Assembly (NCBI GenBank): GCA_944390825.1
Contig: CALXRG010000001.1
Coordinates: 124,001-188,000 of the forward strand
Length of the DNA stretch: 64,000 nucleotides
Direction of reading: 5' to 3'
Origin: an uncultured Akkermansia sp.
GTDB taxonomy: Bacteria; Verrucomicrobiota; Verrucomicrobiia; Verrucomicrobiales; Akkermansiaceae
This document shows positions 1 through 3,022 of the stretch, piece by piece (position 1 is the stretch's first letter; every line of letters begins with the position of its first letter). The notes below the pieces were generated by a model. It saw nothing but the letters and a program-made list of their open reading frames with translations, did not search any database and had not been told where the DNA came from. A program made the position numbers and the translations under genes.

Positions 1-1301
1 TCAGCCACCCGGGCACCATCCACATCCATCGTACTGCCGGCTCCAACCACCAGCGCCGCCCCGTTTTCCAACGTACCGGCAAACGAACCGCCTTCTTTCA
101 CCCGGTAGCTGCCGGTCTGCAGGCGGGAGTACTCTAAGGCCGCCAGCTTCTTCAGGGTGGTAGAACCCACACCCTCCGCCAGAGCCAAAGATGCCACGCA
201 TGAGTCGCCTCCTGTCAGACGCACCGACTCCGCATGGGACATAGCATTCGACGAGCCCAGAACAAGCGTCGCATCACTGAACTGCCACGACTCTCCAACC
301 TGCATCAAGCCGGAAAAGTCACCATCCTCCACAATGAGGGTACCCTGACTTACCAGAGCCGTTCCGCTGCCGGTCAGCGACTTGAGGATGACATTGGGAG
401 AGGTTGCAGTCACGTAAAACTCACCATCCACGTGAACATCCGCAGACGCACGACTTCCGGCAAAGGAGAGACCGCCGGCTCGATGCTCCGGAATAACAAT
501 ATTTGCATAAGTGTCGTTATTCAGACTCACCTCGGCGTCTATGCAATCCAGGATCAAGTTATAGTTTCCTGGAGCCCGCAATGAAATCATAGACCAGGTA
601 CTCTCCCCCGTGATCCGGATGGTGCCGTCCCCCTGGTAGGAGCCACTGATATTGAGGGCAGCCATATTTGCCGCCATATCCACCGTAACCGTCCCCTCTA
701 CCGTAAGGTCTCCCCGCATCTCAAGCCAAGGGTAATATCCGGTACTGCGCATCCTGAGAATGGAGCCATCCTTCATGGTTAACGACCCGGCAAGAACCGT
801 CATTTCATTATTCCCCGCCAACTCCAACTCAGCGGCTCCATTCCCGGTTCCCCCTAGGGTCAGGTTGAGATTGCAGTTGCAGAGGTCATCGCCCGTGCCC
901 AGTTGCAGCTTACCACCTCCGTCAATATCCACCTGGGCTCCTTCCGGCAAGATCTGGCCTTGAGAGAACTCAGCGGTGCCGCTGCTCACTGTAAGGCTGG
1001 AAAGGGACGTGATGGAGCCTGTGCCAGTGAAGGTGTAGGTCTTACCGGCTCCTGCATCGACAATCATCTCGCCCACCTCCAATGAACCTTCTAGGTTAAC
1101 CGTTTCGGTTGTATCATTCAACGGGCCAAAGGTGGCATCGCTCCCTGGTTGGAATGTTTCACCTGAACTAAAGGGCGAACCTACAGCCCAGGTCTCATTT
1201 TGAGGGTCCCAGGTTAGAGCAGCAGCGGGGGGCACAAGAGCCGCGGCAGTGAAGCAGCCAAGGAGAGCTGCGCGGAGTGGAAGGGGCAAATGGAGTTTCA
1301 T
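1..1301 (-). CDS. Autotransporter-like beta-helix surface protein, N-terminal part (cut by window edge)
   Basis: The frame is open from an ATG at 1301 to the window edge, giving 433 residues with no stop. It starts with a signal peptide (MKLHLPLPLRAALLG, then a hydrophobic stretch ending near PAAA). After that come Gly/Ser/Thr/Asn-rich short beta repeats such as GSITSLSSLTVSS and SNAMSHAESVRL, typical of autotransporter passenger beta-helices. The C-terminal barrel, if present, lies outside the window. The first residues match those of the autotransporter gene at 58296, so the two are probably paralogues. There is no Shine-Dalgarno sequence. The gene faces the inverted-repeat segment 1367-1749, and its leader (about 55 nt) can form a 6-bp hairpin (TTGCCT/AGGCAA). 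Role in surface exposure or adhesion is inferred from the family. Confidence 0.75.
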   Translation of the reverse strand, partial: MKLHLPLPLRAALLGCFTAAALVPPAAALTWDPQNETWAVGSPFSSGETFQPGSDATFGPLNDTTETVNLEGSLEVGEMIVDAGAGKTYTFTGTGSITSLSSLTVSSGTAEFSQGQILPEGAQVDIDGGGKLQLGTGDDLCNCNLNLTLGGTGNGAAELELAGNNEMTVLAGSLTMKDGSILRMRSTGYYPWLEMRGDLTVEGTVTVDMAANMAALNISGSYQGDGTIRITGESTWSMISLRAPGNYNLILDCIDAEVSLNNDTYANIVIPEHRAGGLSFAGSRASADVHVDGEFYVTATSPNVILKSLTGSGTALVSQGTLIVEDGDFSGLMQVGESWQFSDATLVLGSSNAMSHAESVRLTGGDSCVASLALAEGVGSTTLKKLAALEYSRLQTGSYRVKEGGSFAGTLENGAALVVGAGSTMDVDGARVA

Positions 1302-1746
1302 ACGCTTAGGATTGGTTATGTGCTTTGGAATTGTTGCCTAATCTAACAGGCAATTCTAGAGTAGCGCATGTCCTATGCGTATGTCTTTTTTCGTTTCCTC
1401 AAACTCGTTCCTCTTCGCCTTTCATCCTCAATCATGAAGCCTCTTATGAGCTCATTGGAATACTGGACGACTTTTTCCCTTATCTTGGTTTTCAGAGAAA
1501 TAGACACATCGGGAGCGCAAAATGAGTCAAACCGTTAGCTGTTCTCCTTTCGCGCAGTTCTTTTGCATGAGAGTCTCCTGTCTCGCCATGGAATGATGTT
1601 GCTCCGCTGTCTCTTAGTCTTGATATTCGCGTGGTTCCATGCCATTCATAATGATGCACTGGGTATTCATCTTAAATGAGATAGATAGGATACACCGATT
1701 GTTTTAGGATTTTTTATTCAAAAAAAAGTTTGACTACGCATAGGAC
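1302..1746. promoter_or_regulatory. Divergent intergenic region holding a putative invertible promoter
   Basis: This 445-bp gap separates the divergent autotransporter and recombinase genes. It is much more AT-rich than its flanks and has no convincing gene. A 15-bp sequence, CATGTCCTATGCGTA at 1367-1381, is repeated exactly in inverted orientation at 1735-1749, where it overlaps the recombinase start codon. On the inner side of the right repeat is TTGACT (1730-1735), a good -35 box. Confidence 0.7.
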
Positions 1747-1749
1747 ATG
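1367..1749. repeat. 15-bp perfect inverted repeats bounding a 353-bp segment (candidate inverton)
   Basis: The arms are 1367-1381 and 1735-1749 and are identical as inverted copies. The left site also contains its own short dyad (CGCAT-GTCCT-ATGCG, 1365-1379), as core sites of tyrosine recombinases often do; the right site matches it except for one base. A tyrosine recombinase gene begins inside the right arm. Recombination between the arms would flip the intervening 353 bp without damaging either flanking gene. Confidence 0.7.
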
Positions 1750-1757
1750 AGTATACA
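1730..1757 (+). promoter_or_regulatory. Promoter spanning the right inverted repeat, as seen in this orientation
   Basis: TTGACT (1730-1735), a 16-bp spacer and TATACA (1752-1757). The -35 box lies inside the invertible segment and the -10 box outside. If the segment flips, the same TTGACT would sit 17 bp from TACTCT (minus strand, 1363-1358) and would read into the autotransporter gene. In the orientation seen here the matching position on the left reads AGACAT, so the autotransporter appears off. One difficulty is that transcription from this promoter would start after the recombinase ATG at 1747. Confidence 0.45.
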
Positions 1758-2823
1758 GGCAAGAGATCGGAAGGCGGCAGAGTTTCTGCTGAAGGAGAGC
1801 GGGCTGACACTGGCGGAGTGTGTCCGCCTGGTGCTGGATGGGCTGGATGCGCTGCCGCGCGGGTTGGATCGCGGGGAGCGGTTGCGGACGCTGCGGGAGT
1901 GCATGCGGCTGGGGGTGGAGGCGTGGTCGCGGCGCGGGGAGAGTGTGACGTTTGGTGAGGCGGTGGAGCGGTTGCTGGTGATTAAGGCGGGGCGTTCGCG
2001 GCGCACGGTGCAGGATATCCGGCAGTGTTTGCGGAAGCTGGGTGAGGGGGAGGATGGGTGGAAGGGGCGGTTGCTGGGTTCCATCACGCGGCGTGAGTGT
2101 GTGCAGCGGTTGGAGGAGCTGTTCCCTTCCCCATCGCGGCGGGTGAAGGCGCGGGCGGTGCTGGTGGGGTTGTTCAACGAGGGGATCCGCCGGGAGTGGT
2201 GCCGGGAGAATCCGGCGAGGTGGGTGGAGGTGCCGCGTATCCGCGAGCGGGAGATTTGTGCACTGCAACGCCCTGAGATTGAGCGCTTGCTGGGGGCGGC
2301 GAAGCGGTATCGGAAGGGGGTGTGTCTGCCGGCGGTGGGGCTGATGCTTTATGCGGGGATTCGCCCGCAGGAGACGGCGCGGTTGCGCTGGAGCGACATC
2401 GACCTGGCGGAGGGTGAGATTATCGTCCCGGCGCGGCACAGTAAGACGGGTGGGGGGCGGCATGTGCCTATTTGTCCTGCTCTGCGGGCGATCCTGGAAG
2501 GGGCGCAGGCGGCTGTGGGGGCCGCGCCGGAGGCGCGGATTTGCCCGGGCAATTGGGTGAGGAAATGGCGGAGTGTGCGGCTCTCAGCCGGCTTCGGGCT
2601 CTGGCAGCAGGATGTGCTGCGCCATACGTTTGCCAGCTACTTTGCGAAGTGCTACCGGGATTTGAATGCGCTGCAGCTGTTCATGGGGCATGGCAATCTG
2701 AATCTGCTGCGCACGCGCTATGTTAATTTACGCGGGGTGAGCGCGGAGGATGCGCACCGCTTCTGGCAAGGCTCCCACGGCGGCCGCAGCGCGTCCCGGA
2801 CATGGTTCCTACAAGTTGGCTGA
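1747..2823 (+). CDS. Tyrosine recombinase / site-specific integrase
   Basis: A 358-residue tyrosine recombinase that cuts and rejoins DNA through a 3'-phosphotyrosyl link. Residues 1-165 form the SAM-like core-binding part and 175-345 the catalytic domain. Visible catalytic residues are Arg206 (GIRPQE), Lys233 (HSKTGGG), Arg292 (DVLRHTFAS), His315 (MGHGN) and Tyr325 (TRYVNL). The His normally three residues before the second Arg is Asp289. The ATG lies in the right arm of the inverted repeat, and no good ribosome-binding site precedes it. The coding strand is strikingly G-rich. The position beside inverted repeats and a divergent surface-protein gene suggests it is the local invertase. A tRNA-Asn gene 128 bp downstream leaves open that it is a leftover integrase of a genomic island. 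Confidence 0.88.
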   Translation: MSIQARDRKAAEFLLKESGLTLAECVRLVLDGLDALPRGLDRGERLRTLRECMRLGVEAWSRRGESVTFGEAVERLLVIKAGRSRRTVQDIRQCLRKLGEGEDGWKGRLLGSITRRECVQRLEELFPSPSRRVKARAVLVGLFNEGIRREWCRENPARWVEVPRIREREICALQRPEIERLLGAAKRYRKGVCLPAVGLMLYAGIRPQETARLRWSDIDLAEGEIIVPARHSKTGGGRHVPICPALRAILEGAQAAVGAAPEARICPGNWVRKWRSVRLSAGFGLWQQDVLRHTFASYFAKCYRDLNALQLFMGHGNLNLLRTRYVNLRGVSAEDAHRFWQGSHGGRSASRTWFLQVG

Positions 2824-2943: not shown

Positions 2944-2950
2944 CTTTCAG

Positions 2951-3022
2951 CTCCGGCGGTTGGGATCGAACCAACGGCCTAGTGATTAACAGTCACCCGC
3001 TCTTCCGCTGAGCTACGCCGGA
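2951..3022 (-). tRNA. tRNA-Asn (GTT)
   Basis: The full cloverleaf is visible. The acceptor is TCCGGCG/CGCCGGA with G as discriminator, the D arm is GCTCAGCGGAAGAGC, the anticodon loop is CTGTTAA giving GTT, and the T arm has the GTTCGATC loop. CCA is not encoded. Its 3' end faces the recombinase gene, a typical spot for element integration, but no second copy of the 3' end was noticed in the window. Confidence 0.95.

Follow-up and report, generated by a model that had tools for sequence, protein, structure and literature searches.

The question raised by this locus is whether the AT-rich DNA between an autotransporter gene and a divergently oriented tyrosine recombinase gene is an invertible promoter region and, if so, which gene it switches and which enzyme inverts it. 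The locus lies at one end of a 64,000-nucleotide stretch of an uncultured Akkermansia genome, the whole of which is called the window here. Sequence comparisons lead us to the view that it is very probably a phase-variation switch, in which the linked recombinase would invert a 353-bp segment and in doing so join or separate the two parts of a split autotransporter promoter. The features on which the argument depends are the following:

1..1301, minus strand: autotransporter gene, the predicted target (encoding 1385 aa, with its 5' part inside the window)
1358..1363, minus strand: fixed -10 box TACTCT of the predicted autotransporter promoter; inversion would put TTGACT 17 bp away
1367..1381, plus strand: left arm of the inverted repeat (CATGTCCTATGCGTA), within a recombinase-core-like dyad, CGCAT-GTCCT-ATGCG (1365-1379)
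1382..1734, no strand: predicted invertible segment, 353 bp, 41% GC, at present in the OFF orientation
1730..1735, plus strand: mobile -35 box TTGACT on the inner side of the right arm, pointing at the recombinase now and found at the same position in relatives
1735..1749, minus strand: right arm of the inverted repeat, holding the recombinase ATG (1747-1749)
1747..2823, plus strand: tyrosine recombinase, 358 aa (PF00589), the predicted private invertase
1752..1757, plus strand: TATACA, proposed in an earlier note as the recombinase -10 box; within the coding sequence, not conserved and judged non-functional

The earlier note had described a perfect 15-bp inverted repeat around an AT-rich 353-bp segment, with an autotransporter gene on one side and a tyrosine recombinase gene on the other; this description is confirmed. 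The two arms (CATGTCCTATGCGTA / TACGCATAGGACATG, at 1367-1381 and 1735-1749) are separated by 353 bp; 2000 dinucleotide shuffles of 1302-1760 gave inverted repeats of 13 bp at most. At zero or one mismatch, the arm sequence has only these two copies in the 2.3-Mb genome (G000, with the window on contig C1). The GC content of the segment is 41% versus 59% for the window, and just 0.16% of 353-bp windows are equally low. What had been overlooked is that the recombinase ATG (1747-1749) lies inside the right arm; because both arms are identical, this start codon would outlast inversion. The window locus is assembled in a single orientation, and we infer that it flips.

The arrangement is not peculiar to this locus. 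Regions upstream of 104 related recombinase genes from Akkermansia genomes were collected; these relatives are not independent of one another. A perfect inverted repeat of at least 12 bp with its right arm at, or adjoining, the recombinase start was present at 72/104 loci; the same test gave 0/104 in shuffled sequences and 3/96 at the 3' end of the gene.

Both flanking genes are what the earlier note took them to be. The left-hand product has the C-terminal beta-domain of a type V autotransporter (PF03797, aa 1108-1363, E = 3.6e-35), and the right-hand product belongs to the Phage_integrase family (PF00589, E = 3.3e-14), with catalytic residues R206, K233, R292, H315 and Y325 intact and conserved in 106/106 family members. 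The histidine of the HxxR motif is replaced by aspartate (D289; codon 289, window 2611-2613), as in 105 of the 106. In some families other residues are tolerated here, so D289 alone does not exclude membership. The same pairing of recombinase and autotransporter is found on another contig (L019), and, outside its own genome, the window locus is most closely related to two orthologous recombinase-autotransporter loci in two genomes (L181 and L029; 93% identical). A search of genome contigs with the recombinase gave one distant match, and the related phage integrases were mostly those of Akkermansia phages. Among the latter, phages Chambord and Moulinsart encode integrases related to the recombinase, and their records open with an apparent tRNA 3' end (L139 1-53 and L140 1-45), hinting that the phage branch of these relatives may use tRNA att sites.

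In the mechanism that we propose, the recombinase encoded at 1747-2823 would bind both 15-bp arms and invert the 353-bp segment between them. It is rather unlikely, in our estimation, that another recombinase of the genome inverts the segment in trans, the adjoining gene being degenerate or of different specificity. Enzymes that could do so are at hand: the window genome contains about a dozen family matches (12, including fragments at contig ends; 3-22 in each same-genus relative). Moreover, in G062, a genome of the same genus that is presumably the A. muciniphila type strain, 5 recombinases stand alongside approximately 33 TTGAC-CGGATT sites, so that most sites are necessarily served in trans and such action must be common there. 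Against a trans enzyme in the window genome, no further copy of the arm exists there, the catalytic residues of the adjoining gene product are intact and, across the genus, arms vary together with the adjoining recombinase. Similarity between arms correlated with similarity between recombinases (Mantel r = 0.549; 0/999 permutations as high), recombinases that are 30-50% identical having arms approximately 36% identical and those that are 70-85% identical having arms approximately 81% identical; the correlation is supportive rather than a proof, since shared ancestry of linked DNA can produce the same. The local enzyme is therefore favoured because arms track the recombinase, the arm is private to the locus and the gene adjoins it, and the linked recombinase, already named as the enzyme of the switch in the earlier note, is the likely invertase.

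Given such an enzyme, the expected consequence of inversion depends on the promoter boxes. The box TTGACT was placed by the earlier note just inside the right repeat and is found there (1730-1735), the right arm opening with its last T. Flipping the segment in silico yields TTGACT-17-TACTCT on the minus strand, a split-promoter design with TTGAC inside the arm and TANNNT outside it. TACTCT is weak as a -10 box; its score falls within the range seen in the genus. A better -10-like box that had been overlooked, TAGAAT, is situated 6 bp beyond TACTCT; flipping would leave 23 bp between it and TTGACT. A consensus scan of the region returned no sigma-70-like promoter, and a complete promoter inside the segment, of the fimS or ipuS type, was not found.

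The same geometry was seen throughout the genus-wide set. TTGAC abuts the inside of the arm on the recombinase side (OFF) at 43 loci, on the target side (ON) at 7 and on both sides at 0; the exact pentamer is absent at 28 loci, and its background in segment interiors is 1.8% per 19-mer. When spacing was counted from TTGAC or a closely similar -35-like box, TANNNT stood 17 bp away on the target-side outer flank at 50/66 loci versus 0/66 on the recombinase side. The corresponding values in a non-redundant subset were 34/47 and 0/47, with few occurrences at neighbouring spacings; about a quarter of the related loci are without TANNNT at 17 bp. The nearest relatives conform, with TTGACT-17-TAAGCT at L019 and TTGACT-17-TATTAT at both L029 and L181, the last two being in the OFF state. 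With TTGAC inside the arm and TANNNT outside it at a spacing of 17 bp, the crossover arm is thus the promoter spacer, the -35 box being mobile and the -10 box fixed. Strand exchange within the arm would accordingly unite the two boxes or part them, and at the window locus inversion would complete TTGACT-17-TACTCT and turn the autotransporter ON. For the present, the autotransporter is predicted to be OFF because the -35 box is at the recombinase end, the arrangement seen at 43 loci. Both the predicted effect of the flip and the present state had been proposed in the earlier note, and the in-silico flip and the geometry in the genus lend them support.

Less of what that note said about the recombinase side can be retained. 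Its view that the -35 box moves between -10 boxes fixed outside the segment stands for the autotransporter side (50/66), but not for the recombinase side (0/66). Likewise, TATACA does follow TTGACT at 16 bp in the present orientation, as it had stated, but this pair cannot drive the recombinase because transcription would begin inside the coding sequence, TATACA being downstream of the ATG; TANNNT occurs there in 0/66 relatives. The first codons of the recombinase are similar to those of its paralogue at L019. When segments were aligned, a conserved TGCTTGAC end was apparent, and no clear shared promoter toward the recombinase was found in the aligned segments. As a separate observation, segments of the ~124-bp class (e.g. 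L057, L088 and L094) contain a conserved GGAAnGnnGTTCC-like dyad, where an accessory protein may bind.

All DNA preceding the recombinase ATG is on the moving segment, so that transcription of the recombinase would be either orientation-dependent or driven from different promoters in the two states; a link between orientation and recombinase transcription is what the anatomy of the locus leads one to expect. It could even be supposed that the switch inverts but mainly toggles the recombinase, its effect on the autotransporter being modest. This is suggested by the position of the ATG in the right arm, as a result of which the entire upstream region moves, and by TAGAAT in the left flank, which could act in either orientation: paired with TACGCA of the arm, it might provide a basal autotransporter transcription that is independent of orientation. 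We nevertheless regard a mere recombinase toggle as decidedly improbable, since the -10 box conserved across the genus is on the target side only.

Whether the segments invert at all can be judged from their orientation in relatives. Among related segments that could be aligned, OFF-OFF pairs were direct in 94/94 cases and OFF-ON pairs were inverted in 14/14. At the orthologous loci L182 and L183, the ends of the segment are swapped and the flanks are collinear. Within the window genome, contigs C11 (76969-76982) and C4 (1-14) both terminate exactly at the inner base of one shared 14-bp arm, which belongs to another switch of this kind: C11 carries the recombinase side, and on C4 the target side continues with a -10-like TACACT and then, at position 242, with an open reading frame judged by eye to encode a glycosyltransferase. 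The end of contig C26 (22064-22077) also coincides exactly with an inverton arm. Breaks on the arms such as those of C11 and C4 would be the expected behaviour of an assembly graph if both orientations were present in the reads. A contig end at L047 has a 59-bp inverted repeat spanning the recombinase start, which is probably an artefact of mixed-orientation assembly.

These observations bear on a reading in which a regulator, perhaps the recombinase itself, would bind the arms as operators of a divergent promoter region and no inversion would take place. Such a role would suit the CGCAT-N5-ATGCG dyad of the left arm and the arms of many relatives, which are core-like dyads of the type CGGATT-nnn-AATCCG and often near-palindromic. 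However, direct repeats of the same length were found at 2/104 loci versus inverted repeats at 72/104, and palindromic operators were rejected on this count: with 72 inverted to 2 direct, the repeats are inversion substrates and not merely repeated palindromic operators. The operator reading is also opposed by the occurrence of the -35 box at either end and never at both, by the inverted segments in relatives, by the contigs that break at arms and by the proven inversion of elements with the sister motif (PMC13343947); it is very doubtful. The arms, the boxes, their spacing, the conservation across the genus and the presence of both orientations in relatives can all be read directly from the DNA, whereas the flipping of the window locus, the role of the linked recombinase as its invertase and the promoter activity of the boxes are predicted.

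It is scarcely credible that the recombinase is instead the integrase of an island or prophage remnant at the tRNA-Asn gene (2950-3022), with the repeats unrelated to it: 127 bp separate the recombinase stop from the tRNA 3' end, the Akkermansia phage integrases are related and the two phage records mentioned above open with a sequence like a tRNA 3' end, but the flanking open reading frames of the window are not phage-like, the arrangement of recombinase and autotransporter recurs at L019 and a search allowing up to 2 mismatches gives a single genomic copy of the tRNA 3' end, so that there is no att duplication.

For A. muciniphila elements with CGGATT..AATCCG, inversion has been demonstrated by reads, PCR and digestion (PMC11892184, PMC13343947). 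We found 33 TTGACnnCGGATTnnnAAT sites (21 exact, 12 with one mismatch) in G062 versus 0 for the reversed control pattern, and 27/30 sites examined had an inverted partner 139-277 bp away. At these paired sites, TA at 17 bp was present on exactly one side in 21/27 versus 0-7 at other spacings; TTGAC was present at both arms in none of the 27. One site (2094059-2094248) equals an inverton tracked by reads in PMC11892184 in arm length and arm-to-arm distance, and both adjoin an autotransporter gene; the two are probably the same element despite coordinates 1,965 bp apart. Viral contigs were scanned for TTGACTTACGGATTnnnAA, which occurred in 4 contigs, none having a site-adjoining repeat pair of at least 11 bp or a related recombinase in the DNA examined. 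The window shares with Akkermansia invertons an inverted-repeat pair around an intergenic segment, but its arm (TACGCATAGGACATG, dyad CGCAT-N5-ATGCG) does not contain the CGGATT..AATCCG motif; because the arm motif differs, the window is of the same design but outside the published group of inverted repeats.

Several other systems resemble the window in part. In the E. coli fimS switch, a tyrosine recombinase (FimB/FimE) inverts a promoter segment of ~300 bp and thereby switches a surface structure. The fimS promoter is, as is generally known, wholly inside the element, whereas in the window the -35 box alone would move. At the circle junctions of insertion sequences, recombination joins a -35 and a -10 box into a new promoter; such a junction is, again as general knowledge, a transposition intermediate, whereas the window would use a reversible inversion to control a host gene. 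The ipuS element of UPEC, at ipuA-upaE, is like the window in that an invertible element lies between a tyrosine recombinase gene and an autotransporter operon and in that one repeat is inside the recombinase coding sequence (PMC6083910). It differs in that the element contains the transcription start together with a putative complete promoter, in its repeats of 7 bp, and in having a repeat at the C-terminal end of the recombinase, IpuA being truncated upon inversion; it is also a substrate of several recombinases (PMC6083910). The A. muciniphila invertons (CGGATT..AATCCG; 'group 138'; the cps1 inverton) are of the same genus and have short inverted repeats that flank an intergenic segment with a promoter, next to genes for surface products, autotransporters included (PMC11892184, PMC13343947), and sites of this type in G062 have, like the window, the -35 box inside and the -10 box outside at 17 bp. 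Unlike them, the window has a different, locus-private arm that overlaps the start codon of the adjoining recombinase, and a segment of 353 bp (mostly 110-280 bp in the A. muciniphila invertons); neither a linked recombinase nor a promoter split by the crossover is described in the available portions of the same two accounts.

The genes on the -10 side across the genus include many MKLHLP-type autotransporters and members of acyltransferase, GtrA and sulfatase families. Also on this side are family matches to DISARM DrmD (E = 1.7e-188 and 3.7e-188), to Druantia DruE (E = 9.5e-46) and to a type I methyltransferase (E = 8.2e-133). The defence-like genes (L093 3-2060, L124 1845-3974, L077 2-2233 and L100 1772-3343) directly follow split-promoter invertons, on the downstream side, in Akkermansia genomes other than that of the window, which suggests that phage defence may be phase-variable in the genus.

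Jiang 2019 (Science), reportedly the key reference on Akkermansia invertons, is said to describe an 'Akkermansia promoter motif', and the split geometry may in part have been noted there already. That Akkermansia has invertible promoters, and that autotransporters can have recombinase-linked invertible promoters (ipuS-upaE, PMC6083910), is already known; what look like new elements are the promoter split across the crossover site and the private recombinase whose start overlaps that site. We think it reasonably likely that these hold widely, i.e. that the crossover site of the invertible elements of Akkermansia also serves as the promoter spacer, that in a large sub-family each switch has a private recombinase with its start codon overlapping the site or almost touching it, so that every flip rewires the upstream region of the recombinase, and that the cassette is placed before autotransporter, glycan-modification and phage-defence genes.

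If so, a simple sequence rule (TTGAC, the arm, a 17-bp spacer and TANNNT on one side only) would reveal, from an assembled Akkermansia genome, whether each of dozens of switches is ON or OFF. A candidate invertase could be named for many of them; none is identified in the available portions of the Akkermansia inverton papers (PMC11892184, PMC13343947). The locus also raises the question of how a switch behaves when it moves the upstream region of its own invertase. For Akkermansia itself, surface proteins, glycan enzymes and defence genes (DISARM DrmD-like, Druantia DruE-like and type I methyltransferase) are predicted to be phase-variable.
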